DNA of 19,112 nt, from contig NZ_LATL02000004.1 of assembly GCF_000972705.2 (NCBI RefSeq), positions 1 through 19,112 on the forward strand. Direction: 5' to 3'. Made by a program: the position numbers and the translations under genes. How positions within the stretch are numbered: the stretch's first letter is position 1; the number at the start of each line of letters is the position of its first letter. The DNA comes from Limnoraphis robusta CS-951 (GTDB lineage: Bacteria > Cyanobacteriota > Cyanobacteriia > Cyanobacteriales > Microcoleaceae). The notes beneath the pieces were generated by a model, which was not told where the DNA came from, did not search any database, and saw nothing but the letters and a program-made list of their open reading frames with translations. Positions 1,950 to 16,381 of this stretch are shown one piece after another.

Positions 1950-4679
1950 CTAGGACTCTAAGTTTTGTGAAAGGTTACTCAAAGCTGCTGAAATATACCC
2001 TTCCTGCAACACATCTTGAGGATTAACCGTAGCAGCAACCGTCATTAAACGAGCAATAACCCCTGTCCATCCGGTTTGATGACTCGCCCCAATTCCTGCA
2101 CCACTGTCCCCATGAAAATACTCGTAGAATAAAATTAAATCTCGCCAATGGGGATCAGTTTGAAACTTTTCACTTTCCCCATAAAGGGGACGCTTTTGCT
2201 GATCATTTTGCAGAAAAATATTACTCAAACGACGGGTAATTTCATTCGCCACTTCCCAGAGCGTCATCCATTGACCTGAACCTGTCGGACATTCGACTTT
2301 GAAATCATCTCCATAGTAAGCATACATCTTCCGTAACGATTGGATCAACATCATATTTACAGGCATCCAAATCGGACCGCGCCAGTTAGAATTTCCCCCA
2401 AATAATCCGCTTGAAGATTCCGCCGGTTCATAATCAACCTGATAAACATTTCCTGCGACTGTAAAAATGTAGGGATTATCTTTGTGATAACGGGAAAGGG
2501 CGCGAATTCCATAATCGCTCAAAAATTCTGATTCATCCAACATTCGTTGCAATATTCGCTGTAATTTTTCGCGGTTTACTGGAGATAACAAGCATTTTCC
2601 TGTGCTGCTTGTTTGAATGGGATCGCTAATATTTTTGATACTTTTGCTATGTTCTTTGTTGAAATCTTCCATCCGCTTGGCGACTTTGGGGACTTTCTCT
2701 AAAAGTTTAGAATCGTAAACCATTGTTGCAAATAAAGGAATTAATCCGACCATAGATCGGACTTTTACCCGAGTTGAATAACCATCGGGGAAGCGCAACA
2801 CATCATAATAAAAACCGTCTTCTTCATCCCACAATTCATCGGCGTTTTCTCCAATGCGATCCATTGCCATCGCAATGTACATAAAATGTTCGTAGAATTT
2901 GCAGACGAGATCTTCGTAGACGGGATTTTCTAGGGCTAATTCAAAGGCAAGGGCTAACATATCTAAGCAAAACATTGCCATCCAACTGGTGCCGTCGGCT
3001 TGTTCTAAAGTTCCTCCTCCGGGTATAATAGAACTGCGATCAAAGACTCCAATATTATCTAAACCCAAAAAACCGCCTTCAAAAACATTATTACCCTGAG
3101 CATCTTTTCGGTTGACCCACCAAGTAAAGTTCATTAACAATTTGTGAAACATACTTTCGAGGAAAACGCGATCGCCTTTGCCTTCATTTGCAAGTTTACC
3201 CATGAGATAAACTTGCGCTGTTGCCATACAATGAACAGGCGGGTTTACATCGCTAAAGTTCCACTCATAGGCGGGAATTTGACCATTCGGATGTAGATAA
3301 ACTTGATTGGTCATCAACCGCAGTTGATCTTCTGCAAAATCGATATCAATCATCCCTAATACTAAACAATGAAACGCTAAGTCCCAAGCGGCAAACCAGG
3401 GATATTCCCATTTATCTGGCATGGAGAGAATATCTGCACTTTCGAGGTGAAACCATTCTTTATTGCGGCTGATAAAGCGACTCGGACAGTCAGGGGGCAA
3501 AATTTCATCATTTAACCAATCTCCTACGGGATAATAGTAGAATTGCTTCGTCCACATCATCCCCGCAAAAGCCTGACGCATGATGTTGTGAGCGTCTTCA
3601 GAAAGGGTTGAGGGAATGACACTATTATAGAATTCATCGGCTTCTTTTAGACGAGTCTTGAAGATAGATTCAAACTGATCACCAAAGGCTGTTTCTGGAG
3701 AAGAAAATGAGCGATCACTTAATCGCAATTGAATCGTTTGTTCACCCCCAGCAGGAACTTCTAATCGATAACTGGCTGCCGCTTTGGTTCCGATTTTATC
3801 CGGGTTAACAGCATCGGTTTTTCCCTCTAAAATATAGTTATTAATGCCATCTTTAACATAGGGTGAAGCATTAGGAATATTAAAGATGCGTTGCGTGTTG
3901 GTTTCGTTTTCTGTAAATAATAGAGGAACGGTGCGATCGCAATATAAATACCGTTTACCCAGTTGATGATGATCAGCCGCGATGGTTTGATCATTGAGTT
4001 GTTTGAGAGTCGGTTTGGGGGGAGTTTGAGGAAACCATGACCAATTATTTCGGAACCAAAATGTCGGTAAAACCTGTAGAGATGCCGCTTCTGGCCCCCG
4101 ATTACACACCGTAATTTTAATCAGAATATCTTCTGGTGTTTCTTTGGCATATTCTATAAATACATCGAAGTAGCGATCTTCATCAAATATTCCTGTATCA
4201 ATCAGTTCATATTCTAACTCTAGACGATTGCGATGACGATTGGTTTTAACTAAATCACTGTAAGGAAAGGCTTCCTGTGGATATTTATACAGGTATTTCA
4301 TGTAGGAATGAGTCGGCGTACTGTCTAGATAAAAGTAATATTCTTTGACATCTTCGCCGTGATTTCCTTCACTGTTTGTTAGTCCAAAAAGGCGCTCTTT
4401 GAGAATCGGATCTTTTCCATTCCACAGGGCTAATGCAAAGCAAAATTGTTGTTGATCATCAGAAATTCCACCTAACCCATCTTCACCCCAACGATAAGCC
4501 CGAGAACGGGACTGATCATGGGTAAAATAGTCCCAAGCATTTCCGGTTTGGCTGTAGTCTTCTCGGACGGTTCCCCACTGACGTTCGCTTAAATAAGGCC
4601 CCCATTTTTTCCAAGGAATATTCTCGCTAACAGTGGCTTGCAGTCTCTGTTTTTCCGAATTAGAATTATTGGTTTCCAT
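1950..4679 (-). CDS. GH63-like / MGH1-like glycoside hydrolase (glucosidase)
   Basis: A 909-residue protein with the layout of bacterial GH63-type glucosidases: a beta-rich N-terminal half (about 1-340) and an (alpha/alpha) barrel C-terminal half (about 360-900). Landmarks include DGLGGISDDQQ (67-77), the family-typical KERLFGLTNSEGNHGEDVKE (94-113), YPWFAAWDLAFH (426-437; Asp433 sits where the family's catalytic acid is expected, by inference), HPNGQIPAYEW (463-473), EGGFLGLDNIGVFDRS (534-549), NWRGPIWMPVNMM and HQTGWTGVIA near the C-terminus. Relatives cleave alpha-glucosidic bonds in oligosaccharides or small glucosides; the substrate here is unknown. No signal peptide is seen, so it is probably cytoplasmic. 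The ATG is supported by AGGAG about 12 nt upstream. It lies 203 bp after recN on the same strand and may have its own promoter there. Confidence 0.85.
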   Translation of the reverse strand: METNNSNSEKQRLQATVSENIPWKKWGPYLSERQWGTVREDYSQTGNAWDYFTHDQSRSRAYRWGEDGLGGISDDQQQFCFALALWNGKDPILKERLFGLTNSEGNHGEDVKEYYFYLDSTPTHSYMKYLYKYPQEAFPYSDLVKTNRHRNRLELEYELIDTGIFDEDRYFDVFIEYAKETPEDILIKITVCNRGPEAASLQVLPTFWFRNNWSWFPQTPPKPTLKQLNDQTIAADHHQLGKRYLYCDRTVPLLFTENETNTQRIFNIPNASPYVKDGINNYILEGKTDAVNPDKIGTKAAASYRLEVPAGGEQTIQLRLSDRSFSSPETAFGDQFESIFKTRLKEADEFYNSVIPSTLSEDAHNIMRQAFAGMMWTKQFYYYPVGDWLNDEILPPDCPSRFISRNKEWFHLESADILSMPDKWEYPWFAAWDLAFHCLVLGMIDIDFAEDQLRLMTNQVYLHPNGQIPAYEWNFSDVNPPVHCMATAQVYLMGKLANEGKGDRVFLESMFHKLLMNFTWWVNRKDAQGNNVFEGGFLGLDNIGVFDRSSIIPGGGTLEQADGTSWMAMFCLDMLALAFELALENPVYEDLVCKFYEHFMYIAMAMDRIGENADELWDEEDGFYYDVLRFPDGYSTRVKVRSMVGLIPLFATMVYDSKLLEKVPKVAKRMEDFNKEHSKSIKNISDPIQTSSTGKCLLSPVNREKLQRILQRMLDESEFLSDYGIRALSRYHKDNPYIFTVAGNVYQVDYEPAESSSGLFGGNSNWRGPIWMPVNMMLIQSLRKMYAYYGDDFKVECPTGSGQWMTLWEVANEITRRLSNIFLQNDQQKRPLYGESEKFQTDPHWRDLILFYEYFHGDSGAGIGASHQTGWTGVIARLMTVAATVNPQDVLQEGYISAALSNLSQNLES

Positions 4680-4882
4680 AGCTACTAATTGACTCCTTTA
4701 GATCGAGACTTGAAGAGAATGTCACTGGCTCTGTCTGAATTAGGATTATTTTCGCACAATTTTTGCTAAAAAAATAGAGGGTGTTTGATATGTATTTTAA
4801 ATGTTTCAATTGTAGTCTTTTTTGATCTTTTATTAAGGGATGTTATCAATTCATCACTTGAAAAATCAAGACTGAATAAATT

Positions 4883-6640
4883 TCAGGAAATAGACGGTTT
4901 TTCCGACTGATCTTTGCTTGTTGCCTGTTGCCTGCTATAATCGGCTTGAGTCAGTAAAGAGTCTGCAAAAGCGATCGCTTCAGTAGCAGAACGTCCACTC
5001 GCCAACTGTGCTAATTCTTCGCGACGTTGATGGTTTGTTAGTTGCATCACTCGTACAACCGTTCTTTCTTCTCCTTCGCTAGAAACCTGATCACGAATCA
5101 CTTCTTTTTTCACCTGAAAATGGTGATCGCCCATCGCCGCGACAATGGGTTGGTGAGTCACACATAAAACTTGATGATGTTGACTAAGTTGATGTAATTT
5201 TTGGGTAATGGCTTGGGCGACTCGTCCAGAAACACCAACATCAATTTCATCAAAGACTAACGTTCCTGAACCTGCGACTTGAGAAAAACAAGCTTTCAAT
5301 GCTAACAAAAACCGACTCATTTCTCCACCTGATGCAATTTCACCCAAGGGTTGTAGCGGTTCACCGGGGTTAGGACTAAAACAAAATTCTATCTGATCTG
5401 CTCCATTAATAGTGGGTTCCATTGGGCTGATTTCGACCTCAAATTTAACCTTTTCCATCGCTAAAGGTTTGAGTTCTTCTATTAAATGAGTTTCCAATTT
5501 AGAAGCGGTTTTTTGACGCAATTGAGTTAAGCTTTCACAAGCAATCGCTAATTGTTGAGCGGTTTCTTGATAGGCTTTTTCCAAGGCTTCGAGGGATTGT
5601 TCACCTTCTTGTAATTCTTTCAGTTCAGCTTGAATTTTCTCATAATAGCTGATCACGTCGGCTAACGTTTGACCATATTTGCGACAAATTTGTTTCAGTT
5701 GTTGAATGCGATCTTCGACATCTTGGAGTCGTTGCGGATCAGACTCAAGTTGTTCACCATAACTGCTAATTTGTCGCCCCGCTTCGGTAACTTGGGCTAA
5801 CGCATCTTCCACCATTGCTAAAATCGGTTGTAGTTGCGGATCATATTCCACCATATCGGTTAATAAATTTTCCGCTTGAGACAGTAAATCTGAGGCAGCT
5901 TTTCCCTCATCATTTTCATACAATCCCTGATATATTTTATAACTTTGCTGTTGAAGTTCAACCACATGACTGAGGCGATTAGATTCTTGTTTGAGTTGTT
6001 CTAATTCATCAGCATCGGTTAAATGAGCGGAGTCTAATTCTTGAGTTTGATAGAGTAATAAATCTAATCTTTGGAGACGTTGTTGTTCAAACTGACGGCG
6101 ATTTTCTAAGGTATTTTTCGCTTGTGAGGCTTGGGTATAAGCTGCGGCTACTGTTTTTTTAGCAACAATTAAATCATGTCCCCCATAGAGATCTAACCAT
6201 TCTCGTTGTAAACTGGGTTGACTCAGTTGTAACGTTTGACCTTGGGCGGTAATTTCGACAAAGCGATCGCGAACTTCTTCTAAGAGTTTTCGACTGATTA
6301 AAATCCCATTTAAACGGGAACGGGTGCGAAGTTTTCCGCCAGAGAGTGTAATTTCACGACAACAAACGGCGAGAGTGCCATCAACTAAATCAATTTCTTG
6401 TTGGGCTAACCAAGAGGCGATCAGGGGTTCGACTTCAAAAGTGGCTTCTAAAATGGATCGTTTTGCACCTGTACGAATCACACGACGATCTACTTTTCCG
6501 CCTAAAACTGCATCAATGGCATCGAGGATAATGGATTTTCCAGCGCCAGTTTCCCCGGTAAAAACGTTTAAACCTAATCCCAGTTCTAGATCGAGATGAT
6601 CAATCAGAGCAAAATTCTCAATCCGCAGCGATAGTAGCAT
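4883..6640 (-). CDS. recN: DNA repair protein RecN
   Basis: RecN is an SMC-like ATPase that acts at DNA double-strand breaks during recombinational repair. From the chosen start it is 585 residues, a little longer than typical RecN. The N-terminus MLLSLRIENFALIDHLDLEL is the family signature. Walker A is GETGAGKS (29-36), a long coiled coil spans about 170-400, the ABC signature is ASGGEMS (436-442), Walker B/D-loop is FDEIDVGVSG (463-472) and the H-loop is THQ (495-497). The same frame is open to an ATG at 6763, but those extra 41 residues are translated heptamer repeat plus spacer (FAFCLLP repeats) and are rejected as start. No strong ribosome-binding site precedes the ATG at 6640. Confidence 0.93.
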   Translation of the reverse strand: MLLSLRIENFALIDHLDLELGLGLNVFTGETGAGKSIILDAIDAVLGGKVDRRVIRTGAKRSILEATFEVEPLIASWLAQQEIDLVDGTLAVCCREITLSGGKLRTRSRLNGILISRKLLEEVRDRFVEITAQGQTLQLSQPSLQREWLDLYGGHDLIVAKKTVAAAYTQASQAKNTLENRRQFEQQRLQRLDLLLYQTQELDSAHLTDADELEQLKQESNRLSHVVELQQQSYKIYQGLYENDEGKAASDLLSQAENLLTDMVEYDPQLQPILAMVEDALAQVTEAGRQISSYGEQLESDPQRLQDVEDRIQQLKQICRKYGQTLADVISYYEKIQAELKELQEGEQSLEALEKAYQETAQQLAIACESLTQLRQKTASKLETHLIEELKPLAMEKVKFEVEISPMEPTINGADQIEFCFSPNPGEPLQPLGEIASGGEMSRFLLALKACFSQVAGSGTLVFDEIDVGVSGRVAQAITQKLHQLSQHHQVLCVTHQPIVAAMGDHHFQVKKEVIRDQVSSEGEERTVVRVMQLTNHQRREELAQLASGRSATEAIAFADSLLTQADYSRQQATSKDQSEKPSIS

Positions 6641-6695
6641 TTTTAGGGTTAAATTATAATCACCAATTGACTGAAAGTTTATGGCGCTACGCGCA

Positions 6696-6779
6696 GGCAA
6701 AAGGCAAAAGGCAAAAGGCAAAAGGCAAAAGGCAAAAGGCAAAAGGCAAAAGGCAAAAGGCAAAAGGCAAAAGGCAAAA
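6696..6779. repeat. heptamer tandem repeat, 12 x GGCAAAA
   Basis: Twelve exact units of GGCAAAA lie between recN and the recN-nusB spacer. Because 7 is not a multiple of 3 and no unit contains a stop on the minus strand, the array creates an artificial open frame (FAFCLLP repeats) fused to recN. Heptameric short tandemly repeated repetitive sequences are known in cyanobacteria. This array lies 55 bp upstream of the recN start, so its length could alter promoter spacing or the leader. Confidence 0.95.
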
Positions 6780-6808
6780 GTTCGACTATAAAAGGTTTTC
6801 AGCTTCTT

Positions 6809-6849
6809 GAAAAGTTTGGCGGGACGGAAACAGACACCGCCAACTTTTC
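6809..6849. other. hairpin upstream of recN
   Basis: GAAAAGTTTGGCGG (6809-6822) and CCGCCAACTTTTC (6837-6849) pair with a single bulged base around a 14-nt loop. No run of T follows on either strand, so an ordinary intrinsic terminator is doubtful. It may be an RNA-stabilising or attenuating structure between nusB and recN, or a small mobile repeat. Confidence 0.5.
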
Positions 6850-6924
6850 GCTTTTACCAATGTCAAATACCGTGTCGGCGTAGTGCTATAGAATAAAATC
6901 ATCAAAATTATTTCCACCTATTTT

Positions 6925-6973
6925 GACCGTTATTAGTAACTCTTTGGGGGGTTAGAGTTACTATTATTCGGTC
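6925..6973 (-). terminator. hairpin just after nusB
   Basis: GACCGTTATTAGTAACTCT and AGAGTTACTATTATTCGGTC are near-perfect complements around a loop containing GGGGGG. It starts 14 nt after the nusB stop on the minus strand, the position expected of a 3'-end structure. There is no U-tract, so termination may not be intrinsic. Confidence 0.45.
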
Positions 6974-6987
6974 TTGTGTATTAAGGA

Positions 6988-7620
6988 TTAACTCTGAATG
7001 GGAACATCAGCTTGAATTTTATCAACAGCACGACGCAATACTCCATTGAGAAATCGATAGCTTTCTTCATCGCTGTAGCGTTTAGCGAGTTCGACGGCTT
7101 CATTAACTGCGACTTGCTCTTGAACTCCCAGGTATAACAGTTCAGCTACAGCAATTCTTAAAATATCGCGATCAATTCGAGGTAAACGGCTCATTTGCCA
7201 GTCTACCATTGCTTGATTCAACAGTTCGTCAATTTCCGTGCGGTGAGTATTAACAGCCGTTAAAATATCAATGGTGTAGCCGACGACTTCTTCCTGTCGA
7301 GCCAGTTGGATCAGTTCAGGAAACTCGACAGCCGTTGCTAAACGATTAACGGCGCTCTGCGTCAGTTCAATGGCTTCTTGGATCATCGCTCTAGCACTTT
7401 GTAGATCGCTTGCTCGAAATTGACTTCCCATCAGGCGATCATTTCCCCGTTGCAATTCAACCATTGCAGTTTCTAGAGACTCTTGACTTTCGGTGGCGAG
7501 TGTCCGCACAACAGCCAAGACGATATCTTGAATTTGTTGAGTCGCGAGTTTTTCTGAACTGCTTGGAAGTTGACCAATACCTAGAACAGCGAGTTCACGA
7601 GCGCTTCGGCGAGCTTGCAT
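6988..7620 (-). CDS. nusB: transcription antitermination factor NusB
   Basis: NusB binds boxA RNA with NusE (S10) and supports antitermination of rRNA transcription. The 210-residue protein begins MQARRSARELAVLGIGQL, the usual NusB start (RR..ARE.A...L). It carries an insertion of about 60 residues (about 40-100) typical of longer cyanobacterial NusB proteins. It ends with the conserved core: LPRIDRDILRIAVAELLYL (146-164), VAVNEAVELAKRYSDEESYR and FLNGVLRRAVDKI. GGGGAA lies about 6 nt before the ATG. The DUF502 gene lies 88 bp upstream on the same strand, an arrangement common in cyanobacteria, so the two are probably co-transcribed. Confidence 0.95.
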   Translation of the reverse strand: MQARRSARELAVLGIGQLPSSSEKLATQQIQDIVLAVVRTLATESQESLETAMVELQRGNDRLMGSQFRASDLQSARAMIQEAIELTQSAVNRLATAVEFPELIQLARQEEVVGYTIDILTAVNTHRTEIDELLNQAMVDWQMSRLPRIDRDILRIAVAELLYLGVQEQVAVNEAVELAKRYSDEESYRFLNGVLRRAVDKIQADVPIQS

Positions 7621-7708
7621 AGAATTCCCCAGTGAGTTGTAATATCAAACGAGAGTTTTAGAACGAGCAGTGTTGAGGAAATATTCTCAATCTAAGGCTA
7701 ATCCTTGA

Positions 7709-8530
7709 TCATTCCTCATCTAATGGTACTGTTTGCAGTCGGTTCTCGTTAGGGATTAACCGTTCAAGTTTTTGATCGCTAACAGGATCGTTTTGAGTGG
7801 GTTTCAAGGGGGCGGTAGAATTGACAATACCACCAGACACTATAATTTTAAAGGCATCTTCGACCGATAGAGTCAGGTTCATCACCTGATTAGTCGGAAC
7901 CACAGCGTACCATCCACTGGTGGGGTTGGGGGTTGTGGGAATAAAAATGCTGATCATCTGTTCCGTCATTTTTGACTGGATCTCTTCGCTGACATTTCCC
8001 GTCACAAACGCCAGTGTCCAAATTCCATGTCGGGGATATTCAACTAAAACCACACGACGAAACTTATCGTTAGAATCTTTGAGCAGGGTTTCTAAAATCT
8101 GTTTGAGGGTTTTATAGACTGAACCCGCCAGAGGGATTGCTTGCAGGATTTGTTCGCCGAAATCAAGCAGCCAGCGACCCACAATGTTACGGGCCATTAA
8201 CCCAATGAATAAGATCCCCAAAAGCGGAACCGCTAATCCCACAACAACGTTGAGTAAGTTAACTAAAATGGGATGCAGTCCATCAAAGGGATTAACCTGT
8301 TTAGGAATTCGCGTCAAAAACTCAATCACCGAACTGGCGATGGTAATCGTTAACCAAATAGTCGTCGCCAAGGGGATAACGACTAATAAACCTGCGATCA
8401 GGTCACTTTTTAAATCTTGTTTTAAACGTTGAAACACAGAGCGTCCACTCTCCTCTTGTATTGGGGCTGGGGGTCGTTGATCAAATTTAGGTTCTCGGGA
8501 ATCCCGATGATTTTTGGTGGACATTACCAT
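7709..8530 (-). CDS. DUF502 family membrane protein
   Basis: A 273-residue protein of the DUF502/COG2928 family. The N-terminus is polar (1-35). Two membrane helices follow, about 44-68 (IAGLLVVIPLATTIWLTITI) and 88-113 (ILVNLLNVVVGLAVPLLGIL), with the family-typical proline in the first. After these come AGSVYKTLKQILETLL, VVLVEYPRHGIWTLAFVTG, IPTTPNPTSGWYAVVP and VEDAFKIIVSGG, all characteristic of the family. The biochemical role is unknown. It precedes nusB on the same strand. Two ATG codons (8530 and 8524) are in frame two codons apart, and no clear ribosome-binding site picks one. Confidence 0.9.
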   Translation of the reverse strand: MVMSTKNHRDSREPKFDQRPPAPIQEESGRSVFQRLKQDLKSDLIAGLLVVIPLATTIWLTITIASSVIEFLTRIPKQVNPFDGLHPILVNLLNVVVGLAVPLLGILFIGLMARNIVGRWLLDFGEQILQAIPLAGSVYKTLKQILETLLKDSNDKFRRVVLVEYPRHGIWTLAFVTGNVSEEIQSKMTEQMISIFIPTTPNPTSGWYAVVPTNQVMNLTLSVEDAFKIIVSGGIVNSTAPLKPTQNDPVSDQKLERLIPNENRLQTVPLDEE

Positions 8531-8853
8531 CCATTTTAGTGGGTTTTATAAAATCCCTGGCTGCCGTTGACCAAGGGTTAGGATCAAAGCCATGACTTAT
8601 ACATATTACTTCTACCAATTGTAAAGAATTGTTGCAAGCTCCATCAGGCTTAGATTATCTCAGCCTGTCGGGATCAAGCCGATGTAGCTGTTGACATCTG
8701 GCGATGAACAGCTTGAACTCGCTTGAACCAGATTTAATAATTGTAAGTCACCAGGAGCGTAGGGGTAATTCATCAATCACCTCTAGCAGTCATGAAATCA
8801 AGAGGCAATTTTTCTCTAAACTGGAGAGTGTCTGTTAACCATCACTCCTGAAC
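8531..8853. other. 323-bp divergent intergenic region
   Basis: It separates the DUF502 gene (-) from the aldo/keto reductase (+), so it should hold promoters in both directions. No obvious box can be assigned. It contains one possible small minus-strand frame (8660-8773) and no recognisable RNA gene. Confidence 0.5.
8660..8773 (-). CDS. possible 37-aa small ORF
   Basis: The frame reads MNYPYAPGDLQLLNL..., ending PTG, 37 residues, with GAGGTG about 5 nt before the ATG, a plausible ribosome-binding site. No domain is recognised. Its length is compatible with chance, and support is only the start context. Confidence 0.2.
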   Translation of the reverse strand: MNYPYAPGDLQLLNLVQASSSCSSPDVNSYIGLIPTG

Positions 8854-9873
8854 ATGAGTCTACCAACTTCTAGTCGCTATCAATTTACTGATGATTTAAA
8901 CATCTGTCGAATTTTAAATGGGATGTGGCAAGTTTCCGGCTATCACGGACGTATTGACCCCAAAGCCGCGATTGACAGTATGTTTCAATATATGGACGCG
9001 GGTTATACGACCTGGGATCTGGCCGATCATTATGGCCCTGCGGAAGATTTTATTGGTGAGTTTCGCAAACAAATTGTTAATCAACGGGGTCAAGAAGCTT
9101 TAGCAAATCTACAAGCGTTTACAAAATGGGTACCTCGACCGGGGAAAATGACTAAAGCGGTGGTTGAGAAAAATATTGATATTTCTCGTCAACGAATGGG
9201 TGTAGAAACTCTGGATTTGTTACAGTTTCATTGGTGGGAATATCGCGATAAAAGTTATTTAGACGCTCTACACCACATGAGCGAATTGCAGTCTGAGGGG
9301 AAAATCAAACATTTAGCGTTAACGAATTTTGATACCGAACATCTGAAAATTATTGTTGAAAATGGCATCAAAATTGTTTCTAATCAAGTACAGTTTTCTT
9401 TGGTCGATCAGCGTCCGTTGCAGCAGATGGTTGAATATTGCCAAAAACAGGATATTAAGCTTTTACCCTATGGGGTTTTGTGTGGAGGCTTTTTATCAGA
9501 AAAGTATTTGAACCAACCCGAACCGCAAAATTTTCAGCTTGAAACCGTCAGCTTGAAAAAGTATAAAAATATGATTGATGCTTGGGGCGGTTGGAGTTTA
9601 TTTCAAGAGCTATTAACGACGCTCAAAACCCTAGCTGATCAACATCAAGTGAGTCTTTCTAATGTGGCGGTGCGTTATATTCTCGAACAGCCAACTGTTG
9701 CGGGGACGATGATTGGTTCGCGTTTAGGGATTTCTGAACATCTTGCTGAAAATGCTCGGGTGTTTGAATTTAGTTTAGATCCCGAAGATTATCAGAAAAT
9801 TCAGGCGGTTACTGAAAAATCTCAAGACTTATTCCGAATGATTGGAGACTGTGGGGATGAATACCGTCGTTAG
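8854..9873 (+). CDS. aldo/keto reductase
   Basis: A 339-residue NAD(P)H-dependent aldo/keto reductase of the (beta/alpha)8 barrel family. The catalytic tetrad can be read: Asp55 and Tyr60 in WDLADHYGPAED, Lys91 in AFTKWVP and His126 in LLQFHWWEY, with the usual spacing. Cofactor-binding parts are NQVQFSLVDQRP and, near the C-terminus, IGSRLGISEHLAENA. The substrate is unknown. LALTNFD (155-161) is the usual post-barrel-5 motif. No strong ribosome-binding site is seen before the ATG. The DUF2470 gene follows after 60 bp on the same strand and may share its transcript. Confidence 0.9.
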   Translation: MSLPTSSRYQFTDDLNICRILNGMWQVSGYHGRIDPKAAIDSMFQYMDAGYTTWDLADHYGPAEDFIGEFRKQIVNQRGQEALANLQAFTKWVPRPGKMTKAVVEKNIDISRQRMGVETLDLLQFHWWEYRDKSYLDALHHMSELQSEGKIKHLALTNFDTEHLKIIVENGIKIVSNQVQFSLVDQRPLQQMVEYCQKQDIKLLPYGVLCGGFLSEKYLNQPEPQNFQLETVSLKKYKNMIDAWGGWSLFQELLTTLKTLADQHQVSLSNVAVRYILEQPTVAGTMIGSRLGISEHLAENARVFEFSLDPEDYQKIQAVTEKSQDLFRMIGDCGDEYRR

Positions 9874-10243: not shown

Positions 10244-10912
10244 TTAGAGAACGTCGTCGGGTCTTTTTTGTAGTTTTTTGATGGCTTGATTTAAGCGTTG
10301 AAGATAGGGTTTTACCAGCTCTCGATTTTGTCGATCGAGTTTAACAACTTGTCGATGAAGTCGAGCGAGTTTTACATCAACAGGCGCAGAAATTGAGGAA
10401 GATTTAGAGGCGGGAGTCTCAGACTGTTGGGTTGAAATAGCGGTTTGTTTCACCGCTTCTATCGCTTCTTCGATTAATTTTATGCGGACATTCATCACTT
10501 CCCAATCTTGCTGTCTAATCACATCATGTTCTAAACTTTGAGTGACTCGCTGCAACTCCGTTAACACTTCAGTAATCGGATCAAGTTCACTCGCTTCAGA
10601 GGGAGAATTTTGCATCTGTTCGTGTAGAGAATCAACGACTATATGAACATCTGCGATCACAGATTCGGTATATTGTCGGATTTGCTGTTCAAAGCGTTGT
10701 CTGTTAATCAAGTTTAGCCAAAGTGCTGCACTGATAGGAGTTGCAGCATATAAAATCTGCCTGTACCACGCAGCAGCAACCAGAGAACCAATTGTTGATC
10801 CAATCACAGAAGCGTACTCGGCAATTTTAAACCAATCCGTTGATGTTCTAGAACCTGTTAAAGAAGAGGCTTCTCTATTGTGCATGGCGATCGCTACAAC
10901 AAACAGTGACAA
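10244..10912 (-). CDS. membrane-anchored coiled-coil protein, unknown function
   Basis: A 222-residue protein of unrecognised family. It has a short hydrophobic N-terminus (SLFVVAIA), then one or two membrane helices at about 30-66 (EYASVIGSTIGSLVAAAWY and QILYAATPISAALWLNLI). The remainder is largely helical and coiled-coil-like (68-222), with a basic C-terminal coil (KLARLHRQVVKLDRQNRE). The codon at 10912 is TTG; ATG at 10885 gives a 213-residue form. The frame stays open and hydrophobic upstream of the TTG (VWVSIAL), so the true start is uncertain. Its function cannot be stated. Confidence 0.65.
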   Translation of the reverse strand: MSLFVVAIAMHNREASSLTGSRTSTDWFKIAEYASVIGSTIGSLVAAAWYRQILYAATPISAALWLNLINRQRFEQQIRQYTESVIADVHIVVDSLHEQMQNSPSEASELDPITEVLTELQRVTQSLEHDVIRQQDWEVMNVRIKLIEEAIEAVKQTAISTQQSETPASKSSSISAPVDVKLARLHRQVVKLDRQNRELVKPYLQRLNQAIKKLQKRPDDVL

Positions 10913-11165
10913 AGCAATGCTAACCCAAACGGGGACTGATCACTCCATTCGACCCCAAAATTAGAATACTGTCTATCAGGCTGCGTCTTGAGTTATCAGC
11001 CTTTTTCATAATACTTCACAATTTTCCCGGTGTTTCAGCGTTGGGAACTGTCCCCAATCGTCTTATGATGATCTCAGGGACATTTAGAGAAAGCATAACC
11101 TTGATTAACGGCTATTTTGTTGGTTCATCATTTGTTCCCCTTGTCAAGTTTTAGGTGAATGTGTA

Positions 11166-11486
11166 ATGGGTCTAAAAATCATTGAAAGTTTTGATGCCAG
11201 TTTTACTCTCGATCCACAAGCAAAAACGATATTATTTGGCTTACTGACGAGTCAAACGTTTCTCAATCAACTGAGTCAGCAACTTCAGGGAAAATCTGTT
11301 GAATTCACTGAACTTTTATTTCAACCCGTTCCTTATAGCCTTCAAACTCCGAAAGGAATGCCAAGCGAATTTGAACAATACCATGAGTCGGAGGATTATA
11401 TTATTGTTAATGTTCCTCCAAACTTTATGTTTCAAGCCAAAATCTTTAAACCCAGTCGCTTGTGTGCGATTTACCGTCAAGCTTAA
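11166..11486 (+). CDS. unknown 106-aa protein
   Basis: No family is recognised. The protein is soluble, with no signal peptide or membrane segment, and begins MGLKIIESFDASFTLDPQAK. AGGTGA lies 8 nt before the ATG, supporting expression. It is the first of three closely spaced plus-strand genes, followed after 44 bp by the GIY-YIG-like gene, and is probably their operon partner. Confidence 0.65.
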   Translation: MGLKIIESFDASFTLDPQAKTILFGLLTSQTFLNQLSQQLQGKSVEFTELLFQPVPYSLQTPKGMPSEFEQYHESEDYIIVNVPPNFMFQAKIFKPSRLCAIYRQA

Positions 11487-11530
11487 TTGCCGTTAAACTT
11501 AGCCGGATTTCTCTAGAACTTAACCTAACA

Positions 11531-12070
11531 ATGACCACTCAAACCGAAATTTCTACTTTAGCCAGTTTAGACAATATTTCCTACATTGACGAACAAGGTC
11601 TACTTCCCCTCTCGTTGCAAGGAAAAATAGGAGTTTACGCTATATTTAATCGCGATCAAATCTTACAATATGTCGGTTATTCTCGCGATATTTATCTCAG
11701 CTTAAAACAACATTTAGTTCGCAAACCTCAAGACTGTTATGGGGTGAAAGTACAAACGATTGAACGTCCGAGTCGCACGATTTTAGAAGAAATACGACAG
11801 GCTTGGATCGCTGAAAATGGTTCAGTTCCCATCGGAAATGAAGCGCAAGCTGAACAATGGAATCAAGCGATTAATGTCAAACCATTGATGACAGAGGCAG
11901 AAAAGGCGACCTATGAAAAAAGCGACGGACTTGATCAAGAAAAGCTCTTAAAAAATGTTGCCAGACGAATAGAAGCTGATCTTTTACAGATTCTAAAAGA
12001 ACGGGGTTTACAAGAAGAAATTCGCTTCAATCCCAAACTTAAAACCAGTGGTTTATTAGATTTAAAATAA
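11531..12070 (+). CDS. GIY-YIG-like domain protein
   Basis: A 179-residue protein with the first two GIY-YIG motifs: GVYAIF (34-39) and, about 13 residues on, QYVGYSRDI (46-54), followed by a basic helix (LSLKQHLVRKP). GIY-YIG domains are nuclease folds used in repair, restriction and mobile introns. The distal catalytic glutamate could not be placed with confidence, so activity is uncertain. The C-terminal half (about 100-179) is polar and helical. The frame is open upstream to an ATG at 11462 that overlaps the previous gene; 11531 is preferred because it clears the overlap and starts just before conserved sequence. The next gene starts 8 bp after its stop. Confidence 0.7.
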   Translation: MTTQTEISTLASLDNISYIDEQGLLPLSLQGKIGVYAIFNRDQILQYVGYSRDIYLSLKQHLVRKPQDCYGVKVQTIERPSRTILEEIRQAWIAENGSVPIGNEAQAEQWNQAINVKPLMTEAEKATYEKSDGLDQEKLLKNVARRIEADLLQILKERGLQEEIRFNPKLKTSGLLDLK

Positions 12071-12926: not shown

Positions 12927-13172
12927 TTAGCTGAATATAACCCGATGAAGTGATTTAGGCAGTTAATCACCCATTAGAATATAACAGATTAAAATAGGCA
13001 AAAGAAGAATATTCTCCTTTTGCCTGATTCCATTAAATAAATATAAAAAAGCCAGTTTGTAGGCAACAATAAATCAGTTATTTAGTTAGATAATTGTCTC
13101 GTTTCCATTTTTACTTCAGGCGTTTCGGGTTATATAAAACCGATTCTACTGGGAAACCAACAATTAAAGATA
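12927..13172. other. AT-rich spacer with a 30-bp palindrome
   Basis: No gene is supported. It joins the cyclase fragment to the STAND gene's 3' end. The notable structure is the palindrome at 12996-13025. Translation of 13100-13170 on the minus strand gives short protein-like stretches, but no frame can be defended. Confidence 0.5.
12996..13025. repeat. near-perfect 30-bp palindrome
   Basis: AGGCAAAAG and CTTTTGCCT are the outer arms of a near-perfect palindrome with AGAATATTCT at its centre (one mismatched pair). It lies about 150 bp beyond the stop of the STAND gene on the minus strand. It could form a strong hairpin at a transcript end or be a boundary element. No T-tract follows on either side. 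Confidence 0.6.
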
Positions 13173-14576
13173 TTATTGATTTACTCCTTTTTTTACCATA
13201 TAGATTTTAAACAAAGGGTTAAGAAAAAATTTAGAGTGATTGGCTTCTTTTCTTTTTTCTACTAACCCTCGACGTTGTAAAGATTGTATTCCATTGATAA
13301 CTTCATCCCTGGATAATTTTAACTCTAATATCATAGGTTCAATCTCTACTTCCTTTGATTGATTTGCCATTTCAATCATAATTTGTTTTTCCATTACAGA
13401 TAACCGTTGCCAATGGCTCTGTAAAAGGGGTTCTAAATCTCCTAAAAATACAGTTTTACTATTTAAAAACTGAGAAACACAACCGTTAAATAAGTTATCT
13501 ATTGTATTAGCAATAAGTTTTAACGCTACAGGATGACCCTGATACAGTTCAATCAACTCTAACCATTGTTCCTCATCCAGTAATTCTTTTTCTTGCAAAA
13601 GTGCTTTTCCGCCCTCTCCTAACCCTTGTAAATGTAAAGTTCTAATACAAGAATTTATTCCCTCTAATGTGGCAATTTCTCTCGCTTTTTCCCAACTCAG
13701 AAGTATTAAACAACTAGGATGGTATGAAGTCGAAATTTGTTTAAAAAATAAGCCATAATCTTCATAATCAGGTAAATATTGACCTGCTAATTGTCCTGAA
13801 CACAAAATAGATTGCAGATCATCTAAAATGAGTAAACAACGATAAGAGCGAAAATAATCTAAGATAGTGGCTAAGGGAGAATCTCCTATTTGAGATAAAC
13901 ATTGAATTAAATTTGTTTTCAATTCTGATAATAGGGGTTTGTGACTCAAACTCCGCCAAATAATGATATCAAATTCCTGTTTAATTTCTTTAATAAGTTG
14001 AACTGCGATCGCACTTTTCCCAATTTCACTCAGTCCGTATATTGTAATGAGTCGCATCTGTTCTTCTAATATCCATTGTTTCAGGGTGGAGAGTTCAGAA
14101 GTGCGATCGTAAAAACTTAAAACTTCAGGTGCTTCTGTTAAATCAGAATATTTTTTAGGTTGATTTAGATTGGAATTATTGTTATTAGGCGGGTGCGATC
14201 TATCTTTTTGTAAATTGGGGTTCTGATGTTGTGTTATTTCTGAAGATTGTGAATTTTCACTATTCAAATTAACGCTATTATTTACAATATTTACACAATT
14301 ATTCTTGATATTACTAGAAGAACCTAATGTTTCAAAAAGAGAACGAAAGTTTGACTGTTTTATATCTTCCTCTAGGATATCAGATAGAACTTTCCATAAT
14401 TTCCAAGCTTGTTTTTTAACATGATCATGACTACAGTTATAATTCTCTGCGATTTCTCCGTATTTTTGACCTTGCCAAGTTCCTTCTAGGATCGCTTTTT
14501 GCAGAGAGTCGAGATGTTTTCCCGTTTTAGCGAACACCTGTTCATCAGTCCACTGCAAGACTTCTTGAATATTCAT
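13173..14576 (-). CDS. STAND NTPase: vMAP-type HTH + NB-ARC, no sensor repeats
   Basis: A 467-residue signal-transduction NTPase. Residues 1-70 (IQEVLQWTDEQVFAKTGKHL, then a YGEIAENYNCSHDHVKKQAW helix-turn-helix) resemble the N-terminal HTH of cyanobacterial vWA-MoxR-associated (vMAP) proteins. An Asn/Ser/Gln-rich linker spans about 85-145. The NB-ARC core follows: FYDRTSELSTL (155-165), Walker A GLSEIGKS (181-188), Walker B CLLILDDLQ (247-255) and GHPVALKLIA (347-356). A winged helix ends the protein (about 385-467). The usual TSRE sensor motif reads LSWEK here, so its arginine is lost. There are no WD40, TPR or LRR repeats, which normally follow and sense ligands. It is divergent from the membrane/AHH operon, with TCCCAC boxes between. 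A regulatory or sensing role toward that operon is inference. Confidence 0.85.
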   Translation of the reverse strand: MNIQEVLQWTDEQVFAKTGKHLDSLQKAILEGTWQGQKYGEIAENYNCSHDHVKKQAWKLWKVLSDILEEDIKQSNFRSLFETLGSSSNIKNNCVNIVNNSVNLNSENSQSSEITQHQNPNLQKDRSHPPNNNNSNLNQPKKYSDLTEAPEVLSFYDRTSELSTLKQWILEEQMRLITIYGLSEIGKSAIAVQLIKEIKQEFDIIIWRSLSHKPLLSELKTNLIQCLSQIGDSPLATILDYFRSYRCLLILDDLQSILCSGQLAGQYLPDYEDYGLFFKQISTSYHPSCLILLSWEKAREIATLEGINSCIRTLHLQGLGEGGKALLQEKELLDEEQWLELIELYQGHPVALKLIANTIDNLFNGCVSQFLNSKTVFLGDLEPLLQSHWQRLSVMEKQIMIEMANQSKEVEIEPMILELKLSRDEVINGIQSLQRRGLVEKRKEANHSKFFLNPLFKIYMVKKGVNQ

Positions 14577-14610
14577 AAATGTAGGTGAGGTTGTCGTTGA
14601 GTCTGAATTT

Positions 14611-14700
14611 TCCCCACTTTATCCCACTTTTTGCAATTATGGGAACTTTTTCCCACTTTTTCCCACGATTTGAGAACCGGAAATATTTAAAACTTCCCAC
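14611..14700. promoter_or_regulatory. iterated TCCCAC boxes in the divergent promoter
   Basis: CCCAC occurs at 14613, 14623, 14652, 14662 and 14696, mostly as TCCCACTTT. The first four form two pairs, each with 10-bp spacing (one helical turn), 39 bp apart. An inverted ATGGGAAC lies between the pairs at about 14639-14646. The array is 35-125 bp upstream of the STAND gene start and also upstream of the membrane/AHH operon. Regular helical phasing suggests a cooperative operator. The bound protein is unknown; the HTH of the adjacent STAND protein is one candidate. Confidence 0.5.
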
Positions 14701-14839
14701 AATATACCACTATTTTCGCTTGTGTCAACCACCAATAAGATGATATGTTATTGAGAACAATGCAATTATTAAATTTTATAATTCAACACAAAAACTTCGT
14801 AAATTTCAGATTATCTAGTTTTTCATTAGGAGAGCGATC

Positions 14840-15463
14840 ATGGCATCAGGATCTAATTCAGTTCATTTTCAAACAAAATTTTTAATTGGCTGGGCAATTT
14901 TTGGATTAGTTGTTGGGATGGGTCTGTTAATCTCTGAAATGAATTCACCTTCAGGAAGTTTTAATGGAATTGGAGAGGTTTTAAGCTATGTTCTTCTTAT
15001 TATTCCATGTTCGGTCGTTCTCGGTGGTTTCTGTTTGTTAATTGACGGCCTTTTTCTTCATCAAGGTACATTTTCACAAGTAACTCATCCAGAATGGTTT
15101 TGGTATGTTTACCCAGTTTTCTTTATCTGGTCACTTACCCTATCTTTTGTATTGGGTTTATTAGGTATCAAAAGTTCTAGTTCTGGAAGACCATTCCCTC
15201 CAATTCCCCCAGAAGATGTTAAAAGAGAAGTAGATAATATGACCATTGATGACTTTTTGAAAAAGTTTGATGAAGCGATAAAACAAGGAGAAAAACAAGG
15301 AAAAATAAAGCCTGAACAGCAAAAAATTATTCGTAAACTCCGAAAATTGGATCGTTCAAAATATAATAAACGTTTCCAAGAAATTTTTAATTCTAATGAG
15401 TTAGATGAGATTTTTGAATTATTGATACAAGTGTTAAGGTTACTAGGACGGAGAGTAGGATAA
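14840..15463 (+). CDS. three-helix membrane protein with cytoplasmic tail, partner of AHH nuclease
   Basis: A 207-residue protein of unrecognised family. Membrane helices lie at about 13-33 (FLIGWAIFGLVVGMGLLI), 44-70 (VLSYVLLIIPCSVVLGGF) and 86-110 (WFWYVYPVFFIWSLTLSFVL). A proline-rich hinge (GRPFPPIPPEDV) leads to a charged helical tail (about 125-207) rich in Lys/Glu. AGGAGA lies 6-7 nt before the ATG. Its TAA overlaps the next gene's ATG by one base (TAATG), so translation is probably coupled. It could anchor, inhibit or export the nuclease, or be an immunity protein or a pore-forming effector. The sequence does not decide. Confidence 0.7.
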   Translation: MASGSNSVHFQTKFLIGWAIFGLVVGMGLLISEMNSPSGSFNGIGEVLSYVLLIIPCSVVLGGFCLLIDGLFLHQGTFSQVTHPEWFWYVYPVFFIWSLTLSFVLGLLGIKSSSSGRPFPPIPPEDVKREVDNMTIDDFLKKFDEAIKQGEKQGKIKPEQQKIIRKLRKLDRSKYNKRFQEIFNSNELDEIFELLIQVLRLLGRRVG

Positions 15464-16092
15464 TGGGACAGGAAAAAAGATATTTTGAAAATATTACAAT
15501 TGATAAAGGTTCTTTGCTCTCAAAACAGCTTAATATTGAGCCGGGAGATTATTTTGGAGAATTTGATTGCAATAACGAAAAGCTACTACTAACAAAACAA
15601 AGAAATACTAAGAATCGTAAAATCTATGAGATGACTGTAACTTATGAACAATTATTAGTAATATTAATATATGCTGCAAGAGTTCAAGGAGATAAGTTTA
15701 CTCCTGAAGATTTAGCAGCTATGACGAAGATTATTAGAAAATCTTCTCCAATCAAGAAATCGAGTAATTCAGATGTAGCACATCACATTATACCTTTGGA
15801 AGTCTGTGAAAAAAGTAAATTGATCCTGGCTGCCAAAAGATATGACTGTTTTGATGAAAACAGCCGTATAAATTTTTTAAAAGTACCCCTTTATTTTCAT
15901 ATAGGAGCTCATCCAAAATACTCAAAACTTGTAGAGGATATTCTTGATGATAGATGGTCTGATTTAGTAGAGTGTGGACAAGAAAATGATCGTAATGCAA
16001 TTAGGGAGGTTATAGAAGAAGTGATCCAATACTTAACTGACATGATAAAGGAAATGAAGGCGAGTGGAGTTTGTATAATCAACGATATTTAA
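15463..16092 (+). CDS. free-standing AHH-family (HNH/Endo VII) nuclease
   Basis: A 209-residue protein whose central part matches the AHH nuclease family: AHHIIPLE (106-113) with His107 and His108, then S118..L, Asn137 in RINFLKVPL, and FHIGAHPKYSKLV (145-157) with His146 and His150. The H.G.HP.Y signature is as distinctive as AHH itself. In known cases this domain is the C-terminal toxin of long secreted polymorphic toxins. Here it stands alone after a 100-residue N-terminal part of unknown fold (EPGDYFGEFDCNNEK, YEQLLVILIYAARVQ, EDLAAMTKII) and has no signal peptide. It is AT-rich and coupled to the membrane-protein gene. No cysteine-metal cluster is evident. A nuclease effector role is inferred from the motif. 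Confidence 0.75.
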   Translation: MGQEKRYFENITIDKGSLLSKQLNIEPGDYFGEFDCNNEKLLLTKQRNTKNRKIYEMTVTYEQLLVILIYAARVQGDKFTPEDLAAMTKIIRKSSPIKKSSNSDVAHHIIPLEVCEKSKLILAAKRYDCFDENSRINFLKVPLYFHIGAHPKYSKLVEDILDDRWSDLVECGQENDRNAIREVIEEVIQYLTDMIKEMKASGVCIINDI

Positions 16093-16199
16093 CGAAATAA
16101 CGGTTGAATAATCTGCAATATCAGTTATTCTTATATCTGCTTGTAAGTTAGGCTTGGGGAGGGTTTAGTAATATTTGGGTGAAGTGAAAAAGCTCTCGA

Positions 16200-16215
16200 A
16201 GAACCCGCCCCTACA
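16200..16215. repeat. short dispersed repeat AGAACCCGCCCCTACA
   Basis: This is a copy of the GC-rich motif also seen at 1921-1937 and 18725-18741. It overlaps the last codons and the stop of the small antitoxin-like frame (16211-16213), so it may have replaced that protein's original end. Confidence 0.6.
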
Positions 16216-16381
16216 AATTTCTGAAAAGTCGAGACTGTATAATTTCTTGCAATTTCTGTTGAACTTCTGGTTTCACATTTAACTCCACATCAGGATCACC
16301 AAAATATTCCTCTAGGCATTGCTCAACGGTGTGCCGAATTAAATCTTGAAGTTGTTCTACAGTCAGATTACTTACCAACAT
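16211..16381 (-). CDS. 56-aa antitoxin-like small protein (orphan)
   Basis: The frame reads MLVSNLTVEQLQDLIRHTVE, then QCLEEYFGDPDVELNVKPEV, then QQKLQEIIQSRLFRNL. It is acidic and helical, with the LxDLIR.TV...L.E..GDPD pattern seen in small cyanobacterial proteins encoded next to RelE/ParE-type toxins. AGGGGA lies 6 nt before the ATG. No toxin gene follows on the minus strand; instead the stop codon falls in a dispersed repeat and the next gene is the convergent AHH nuclease. It may be an orphan antitoxin or an end-truncated one. A link to the AHH nuclease is possible but unproven. Confidence 0.6.
   Translation of the reverse strand: MLVSNLTVEQLQDLIRHTVEQCLEEYFGDPDVELNVKPEVQQKLQEIIQSRLFRNL

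Follow-up and report, generated by a model that had tools for sequence, protein, structure and literature searches.

A STAND NTPase gene that diverges from a small two-gene operon raises the question whether its product is a sensor that works through protein-protein contact or a regulator of transcription. The locus belongs to the cyanobacterium Limnoraphis robusta CS-951 and lies on contig NZ_LATL02000004.1; the whole stretch of DNA analysed, 19,112 nt, is from here on called the window. The STAND protein (467 aa) is encoded at 13173..14576 on the minus strand, an assignment based on the open reading frame (ORF), an NB-ARC profile match, relatives and substitution rates. It carries an N-terminal helix-turn-helix (HTH). 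In the opposite direction, on the plus strand, follow the genes of a membrane protein (MP; 14840..15463, 207 aa) and of an AHH-family protein (15463..16092, 209 aa; ORF, Pfam match and relatives), which overlap by one base (TAATG). A preliminary description had given exactly these ORF positions and this overlap, as the ORF check showed, and had proposed a candidate conflict module in which the STAND protein was sensor or regulator. The sequence favours a transcription switch over a protein-protein sensor: the HTH-STAND protein most likely binds DNA and regulates its own gene, because a repeat array stands at its own promoter in a fixed register and the repeat unit co-varies with the HTH. Switch rather than sensor is also the reading suggested by the sigma-70 region 4-like HTH, by the array at most promoters of the family and by HTH loci that lack the NTPase. 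The composite reading, a regulator-plus-effector-cassette module that joins this switch, an MP-nuclease unit and the exchange of parts, we consider somewhat more probable than its negation.

Upstream of most HTH genes of the family there is a tandem repeat with a period of 10 bp, which usually abuts a TATAAT-like box in fixed register. The consensus unit, derived from 48 genes whose arrays are clear, is WGTNGGAAAA; its variants include GTACGAAAAT, GTTGGGAAAT and GACGGAAAAA. Two sets of HTH genes were evaluated. Set A, the MP-linked genes, comprised 19 members in the shuffle test, 18 in the self-match test (L026 dropped) and 15 without the close relatives L001, L057 and L058. Set B comprised 46 of the 60 loci L068-L127, which are the best-scoring of 161 matches; seven places already in set A, six with an HTH E-value worse than 1e-30 and L122, which has no HTH ORF, were excluded, and its member L125 (identical to L153) also adjoins an MP. 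The self-match score was taken over 150 nt upstream, and the controls were 150-nt stretches of the same loci before ATG-started ORFs of at least 150 aa, some of them not intergenic. The mean lag-10 self-match was 19.5 in the 15 non-redundant MP-linked genes and 20.2 in the 46 other HTH genes versus 12.6 in 161 controls (Mann-Whitney p = 4e-7 and 2.5e-20, respectively). Lag 10 was the best lag in 14/18 MP-linked and 36/46 other HTH genes, compared with 16/161 controls, and a shuffle p ≤ 0.01 was reached by 15/19, 32/46 and, in a looser control that still holds HTH genes, 30/236.

A TATAAT-like (-10) box was found for 59 of 64 HTH genes and lies 33-35 nt before the start codon in 40 of these 59, while a -10-like box occurred in 61 of 161 controls and at that distance in only two of the 61. 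Among 109 repeat cores, 95 fall into two adjacent phases of ten (5/6, 15/16, 25/26, 35/36 or 45 nt before the box) versus 7 of 26 control cores. The more alike two HTHs are, the more alike are their repeat units (r = 0.36 over 1128 pairs, p = 0.0005), and this co-variation persists below 65% HTH identity (r = 0.245, p = 0.0005). HTH-only genes such as L024 and L025 show the same array layout. About four of twelve more distant HTH genes have an array by eye, so that the array seems to be a feature of the compact clade. In the window the putative operator array, tandem TTTTTCCCAC / GTGGGAAAAA units at 14610..14671 (no strand assigned), has a lag-10 score of 20, which none of 200 shuffles attained, and it is in register: the putative -10 box of the regulator gene, CATAAT at 14636..14641 on the minus strand, has GTGGG cores 15 and 25 nt upstream.

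Around these upstream regions further observations were made. An element TT[TG]GTCNA lying farther upstream, which seemed recurrent by eye, was found in only 7/53 and was dropped. The L124 upstream region carries a repeat of period 9, not 10 (GTACGAAAT; by eye). In L024 a stretch with TTTTTCCAAC-type repeats occurs, by eye, in about three similar copies within the 1-kb gap between the MP and HTH genes (10564-11597), as if the operator region had been duplicated. In L022 (7812-8854) an unrelated ORF stands between the MP gene and the HTH gene, before which no array was found.

The composition of the regulator itself was largely as described before. Its N-terminal HTH (residues 1-85; 14322..14576, minus strand) is of the sigma70-r4/LuxR-like kind, with weak Sigma70_r4 or GerE matches (E 0.003-0.15, all below the cut-offs); in the window protein as in four relatives, these matches coincide in position, within residues 21-62. 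This agrees with the HTH as such; the vMAP label that the preliminary description had attached to it was not confirmed, no such model having matched. An alignment of the HTH alone (A6) gave 28, 50, 28, 5, 9, 10, 24 and 7 matches in eight cassette-carrying genomes, some of them fragments, and many of the strongest are ORFs of about 450-510 aa with NB-ARC. The NB-ARC NTPase region (residues about 151-385; 13422..14126, minus strand) matched Pfam with 33.5 bits against a cut-off of 23.5 (E 3.5e-8), as had been claimed, and its relatives in the PDB by sequence profile are the STAND protein PH0952 and plant NLRs. STAND NTPases are marked by a Walker A motif, GxxxxGK[ST], a Walker B motif and a GxP motif; sequence and alignment gave GLSEIGKS, CLLILDD and GHP, respectively. 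C-terminal sensor repeats are typical of STAND proteins, though not universal. As noted before, Pfam found no such repeat family here, and the protein ends at residue 467 after a winged-helix-like domain (residues about 386-467; 13173..13421, minus strand), in which an HTH regulator model with a cut-off of 90 bits aligns to residues 392-448 at a far lower score, 24.7 bits.

Could the STAND protein nevertheless act as an NLR-like sensor and recruit or activate the nuclease through protein contact, its HTH serving as an adaptor and not binding DNA? We regard this model, which the preliminary description had put forward, as unlikely. It would account for the plant NLR-type STAND proteins among the sequence relatives and for the effector genes next door, and part of PMC7159879 describes adaptor domains as common in the NTP-dependent conflict systems of bacteria, among them cyanobacteria. 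The same model leaves unexplained why operator-like arrays stand in register at the HTH genes' own promoters, why the HTH-only versions L024 and L025 retain array and cassette, why the sensor repeats are missing and why the regulators differ among lineages with the same cassette. Thus, of the earlier alternative "sensor or regulator", the regulator part is favoured, whereas the arrays in register and the HTH proteins lacking the NTPase at some loci speak against a protein-protein sensor.

If the regulator is a transcription switch, what does it control? The narrow MP alignment matched 11 of 195 genomes of the order and the wide one 15 of 195; in the class, seven further genomes gave weak matches to the MP. 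At E 1e-3 the wide AHH alignment had matches in 21 of 388 genomes from the order, four of these being weak, and in 1 of 388 from the class. The named relatives are all cyanobacteria (Planktothrix, Limnoraphis, Phormidium, Oscillatoria, Argonema and one record labelled Chroococcales). Of 24 loci that were examined with their flanks, 18 encode an intact AHH protein, to which both halves of the family model match. The MP gene is directly upstream, on the same strand and within a few bases, in all 18, which supports the MP-AHH operon, and a divergent HTH gene is present in 17. Thirteen of these encode NB-ARC (shortened in L060), three are HTH-only (L022, L024 and L025, with the gene 1 kb away in L022) and one, in L002, runs off the contig end after a readable HTH start; L019 is the only intact AHH locus without a divergent HTH gene. 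The recurrence of the three-gene set, a point that the preliminary description had left to a neighbourhood survey, is hence established, with the window, L001, L002, L057 and L058 being close relatives of each other. Of the two results that would have spoken against that description, a lack of any AHH match and homologues that are never neighbours, neither was obtained. The block conserved among the close relatives (13150..16231, no strand assigned; blastn) spans, in window coordinates, 13150-16231 against L057 and L058, 13183-16227 against L001 and 14206-16225 against L002, whose contig starts inside it.

The remaining loci are incomplete in different ways. An intact regulator adjoins a broken MP and AHH gene in L026; in L064 and L023 the regulator and the MP are accompanied by another partner, the L064 regulator being split into two ORFs; L067 has weak MP and AHH matches without HTH, and L065 and L066 contain other AHH proteins without MP. 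In L065 a 1629-aa ORF (4165-9054) has a weak AHH match near its end (residues 1514-1624), a layout like that of ordinary polymorphic toxins.

By hydropathy, the MP has hydrophobic segments at residues 14-32, 50-68 and 92-110, in line with the three helices described before, followed by a charged C-terminal region; profile searches yielded no family above cut-off. In the 209-aa protein the AHH family (PF14412) was matched with 24.3 bits against a cut-off of 22.3 (E 3.2e-5), and its core residues H107, H108, N137, H146, H150 and Y153 (15775..15927, plus strand) are invariant in 30 aligned sequences, consisting of the window protein and 29 of the other 33 matches; P0039-P0042, partial or distant, were left out and all four have the HH pair. 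This residue set corresponds to the [AG]HH, N, H, H, Y tabulated for Tox-AHH in the part of PMC3482391 that covers it, and the AHH assignment of the preliminary description thereby holds. The protein has in addition an N-terminal domain (residues 1-75; 15463..15687, plus strand), strand-rich in the predicted model. It is this domain that the MP partners in L064, L150 and L151 keep (E 2.5e-11, 1e-6 and 5e-4 at a database size of 10000), those of L150 and L151 being 35% identical over 64 residues, while the same three partners gave neither a C-terminal AHH model match nor a Pfam family above cut-off. Because they share the N-terminal domain without AHH, the MP and the N-terminal domain appear as the constant parts and the C-terminus as the variable one. 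The short partner proteins in L023 and L153, in which the N-terminal domain was not shown, are not counted as further swaps, and at L152 and L154, which match the MP weakly, the stretch fetched contains no match to the HTH family.

These exchanges bear on the possibility that the MP is the immunity protein or antitoxin of an AHH toxin, by polymorphic-toxin or toxin-antitoxin logic, with a regulator that merely sets dosage. The tight coupling of the MP gene directly before the AHH gene and the fast evolution of both would fit this arrangement. The MP is not tied to AHH, though, since related MPs are retained beside other effector ends in L064, L150 and L151; furthermore, the 209-aa protein has no trafficking domain in Pfam and no signal peptide by eye. 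We therefore consider an immunity function quite improbable and return to an MP-nuclease unit under a transcription switch.

Exchange also affects the regulators. In a tree of the HTH domain (62 of 64 rows, L001 and L058 left out) the MP-linked label, carried by 17 of the 62 rows, needs 14 changes, at least 11 of them forced by well-supported branches; the MP-AHH cassette hence occurs with many regulator lineages. Conversely, HTH paralogues adjoin very different, unrelated genes, and their divergent neighbours are highly varied. Among 44 of 60 listed partner ORFs that were scanned, each Pfam family displayed was matched by one member, and PADLOC matches include E1-E2, JAB and QatA. Some of these neighbours resemble conflict genes and others look like chance neighbours; given argininosuccinate synthase, adenylate kinase and others of the latter kind, a general defence role for the HTH family is not claimed. 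By eye, an HTH gene in L102 (1910-2929 and following) diverges from JAB peptidase-like and E2-like genes, and the proteins at L107 2384-2728 and L150 5577-6167 have a common C-terminal motif, IKW.E....GY.P.GN...YRVDIK..GKT, possibly an unnamed effector domain beside two different HTH regulators.

The three genes differ in evolutionary tempo. Pooled over the window, L001, L057 and L058, the ratio of nonsynonymous to synonymous substitution rates (dN/dS) was 0.26 (0.20-0.35) for the regulator, 0.73 (0.52-1.05) for the MP and 0.95 (0.65-1.44) for the AHH protein. For the pair L057/L058 the values were 0.34, 0.56 and 1.55 (0.86-3.2), respectively, compared with 0.05-0.32 for seven other shared flanking genes. 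By region, dN/dS of the AHH protein was 1.77 in the linker, 1.93 in the C-terminal helices, 0.72 in the catalytic core and 0.63 in the N-terminal domain, values to which no significance test was applied. Reading frames stay open, and the six catalytic-type residues do not vary in the 30 aligned sequences, which fits the diversification of an effector pair in an intracellular conflict cassette. Relatives of the MP or AHH protein were not found in viral contigs or plasmids at the sensitivity of those scans; two viral contigs hold a relative of the HTH end. Recent mobility is not supported, as the flanks of close relatives point to one ancestral site. The stretches that flank the block on opposite sides in L001 sit together on its left side in the window (12927-13163), so this locus underwent a rearrangement after the divergence from the common ancestor.

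A cassette with a housekeeping or DNA-processing role and no link to conflict, for instance for nucleic-acid recycling at the membrane, appears very unlikely in view of this tempo, of the patchy occurrence in the order and class, of the decayed MP and AHH genes in L026 and of the exchanged effector ends. What it has in its favour comes from the annotation. PADLOC gave no match for the AHH protein and at best E 0.033 (10.2 bits) for the MP and E 0.0044 (15 bits) for the STAND protein, over short stretches only, and the window neighbours with Pfam matches are housekeeping-type genes. Among 12 window proteins PADLOC found no clear defence gene, with RecN cross-matching SMC/ATPase models and a weak partial Avs2 match at 10244-10912 (15.6 bits, E 6e-4). 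The ORF at 11462-12070 looks GIY-YIG-like by eye (YVGYSRDI) and has no Pfam match at E 1e-4. The earlier proposal of a conflict module thus keeps its conflict flavour through the fast MP and AHH evolution and the exchanged C-terminal domains, without a clear defence gene from PADLOC.

Several points weigh against the reading as a switch with an exchangeable cassette. A significant array is not present at every HTH gene, as the shuffle counts illustrate, and L022, L023 and L060 have none in that test. The Mann-Whitney p-values treat HTH genes as independent and overstate this independence because the genes are related to each other, and the core patterns and the -10 rule were picked after the sequences had been seen. 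Among pairs with less than 55% HTH identity the co-variation is weaker (r = 0.12, p = 0.066). In the window the box lies 65 nt from the regulator start, further GTGGG units lie downstream of the box, and a rival promoter-like pair, TTGACA-16-TATATT, can be read from the sequence at 14701..14728 on the minus strand; if this pair were the promoter, the array would lie downstream of it. The HTH matches to DNA-binding families are all under cut-off, and control of the MP operon by the regulator is deduced from position. The MP label shows hardly more clustering on the HTH tree than shuffled labels do (145/500 shuffles as low), and a tree of only 90 columns supports exchange but not its details. 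The dN/dS values are not significantly above 1 and could reflect relaxed constraint or recombination, and the predicted model of the AHH protein (pLDDT 83), compared with a view to an HNH/EndoVII fold, had no significant match.

Taking these points into account, we propose that the HTH-STAND protein would occupy its own promoter by placing one HTH on each helical turn of the 10-bp array, as arrays, register and co-variation suggest, and by its position it probably governs the divergent operon, too. The nucleotide state of the NB-ARC domain, by analogy to the family, may throw the switch. The MP and the AHH protein would form a membrane-associated unit in which the N-terminal domain of the AHH protein docks on the MP, and the MP may anchor, restrain or trigger it. 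The AHH core would then cut nucleic acid in an intracellular conflict, most likely that of an invader or the cell's own DNA or RNA. Such modules may have been built by exchange, with different regulators and C-terminal effector domains joined to related MPs. A more far-reaching view, tentative and in our estimate rather doubtful, is that filamentous cyanobacteria possess NLR-like transcription switches by the dozen, orthogonal to one another, each of which would recognise a separate 10-bp repeat code at its own promoter and guard an exchangeable membrane/effector cassette, a transcription-based innate-immune repertoire in which MP-AHH is one recurrent cassette. A large cyanobacterial family of compact HTH-NB-ARC proteins is here tied to a concrete, predictable DNA target and to specific cassettes, and this makes its function directly testable. 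If the proposal is right, NLR-like proteins of these bacteria would be promoter-bound switches that bridge SARP/MalT-type regulators and immune receptors. The repeat code would be a rule for pairing regulators with operators, and further effectors could be sought by means of the N-terminal domain of the AHH protein.

No published description of the trio or of the arrays was found in the open-licence PMC literature, and several known systems share some of their traits. With Tox-AHH nucleases (PF14412) the AHH protein shares the Pfam match and the HH, N, H, H, Y residues given in part of PMC3482391. Tox-AHH is the tip of a large exported toxin, whereas the window protein, of 209 aa, stands alone, has an N-terminal domain of its own and shares an operon with the membrane protein. 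The NTP-dependent conflict systems of multicellular bacteria (VMAP ternary and related systems), as far as sections of PMC7159879 and PMC8195603 present them, likewise combine STAND NTPases and exchangeable effectors, cyanobacteria included; the term AHH is absent from the main text of both papers, and whereas VMAP ternary systems have a MoxR ATPase and a vWA protein next to each other, Pfam scans of 15 window proteins yielded a match to neither. MalT/LAL regulators carry a C-terminal LuxR HTH with a TPR sensor, in contrast to the window regulator with its N-terminal HTH and no TPR match. The SigR-type architecture r4_2*NB-ARC*TPR_MalT, catalogued in cyanobacteria in a portion of PMC11119718, likewise combines a sigma region 4-like HTH with NB-ARC; the window regulator differs by lacking the TPR_MalT sensor and by its repeat operator, and that portion describes neither cargo nor arrays for SigR. 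Medium SARPs of Streptomyces consist of a DNA-binding domain and NB-ARC, small forms lack NB-ARC, and their operators are direct repeats of about one helical turn overlapping the -35 region (PMC10972967, in part). The HTH genes here resemble them in the direct-repeat array of about one helical turn near -35 and in joining a DNA-binding-type domain to NB-ARC. They differ in being cyanobacterial, in an array that reaches the -10 box and in their linkage to membrane and effector genes instead of antibiotic clusters, and the sigma70-r4/LuxR-like HTH of the window regulator comes with neither a SARP DNA-binding domain nor BTAD (Pfam up to E 1). Although its DNA-binding domain sets the window regulator apart from the SARP family, SARPs that combine NB-ARC with direct-repeat operators are, by analogy, the nearest mechanistic counterpart of the proposed switch.

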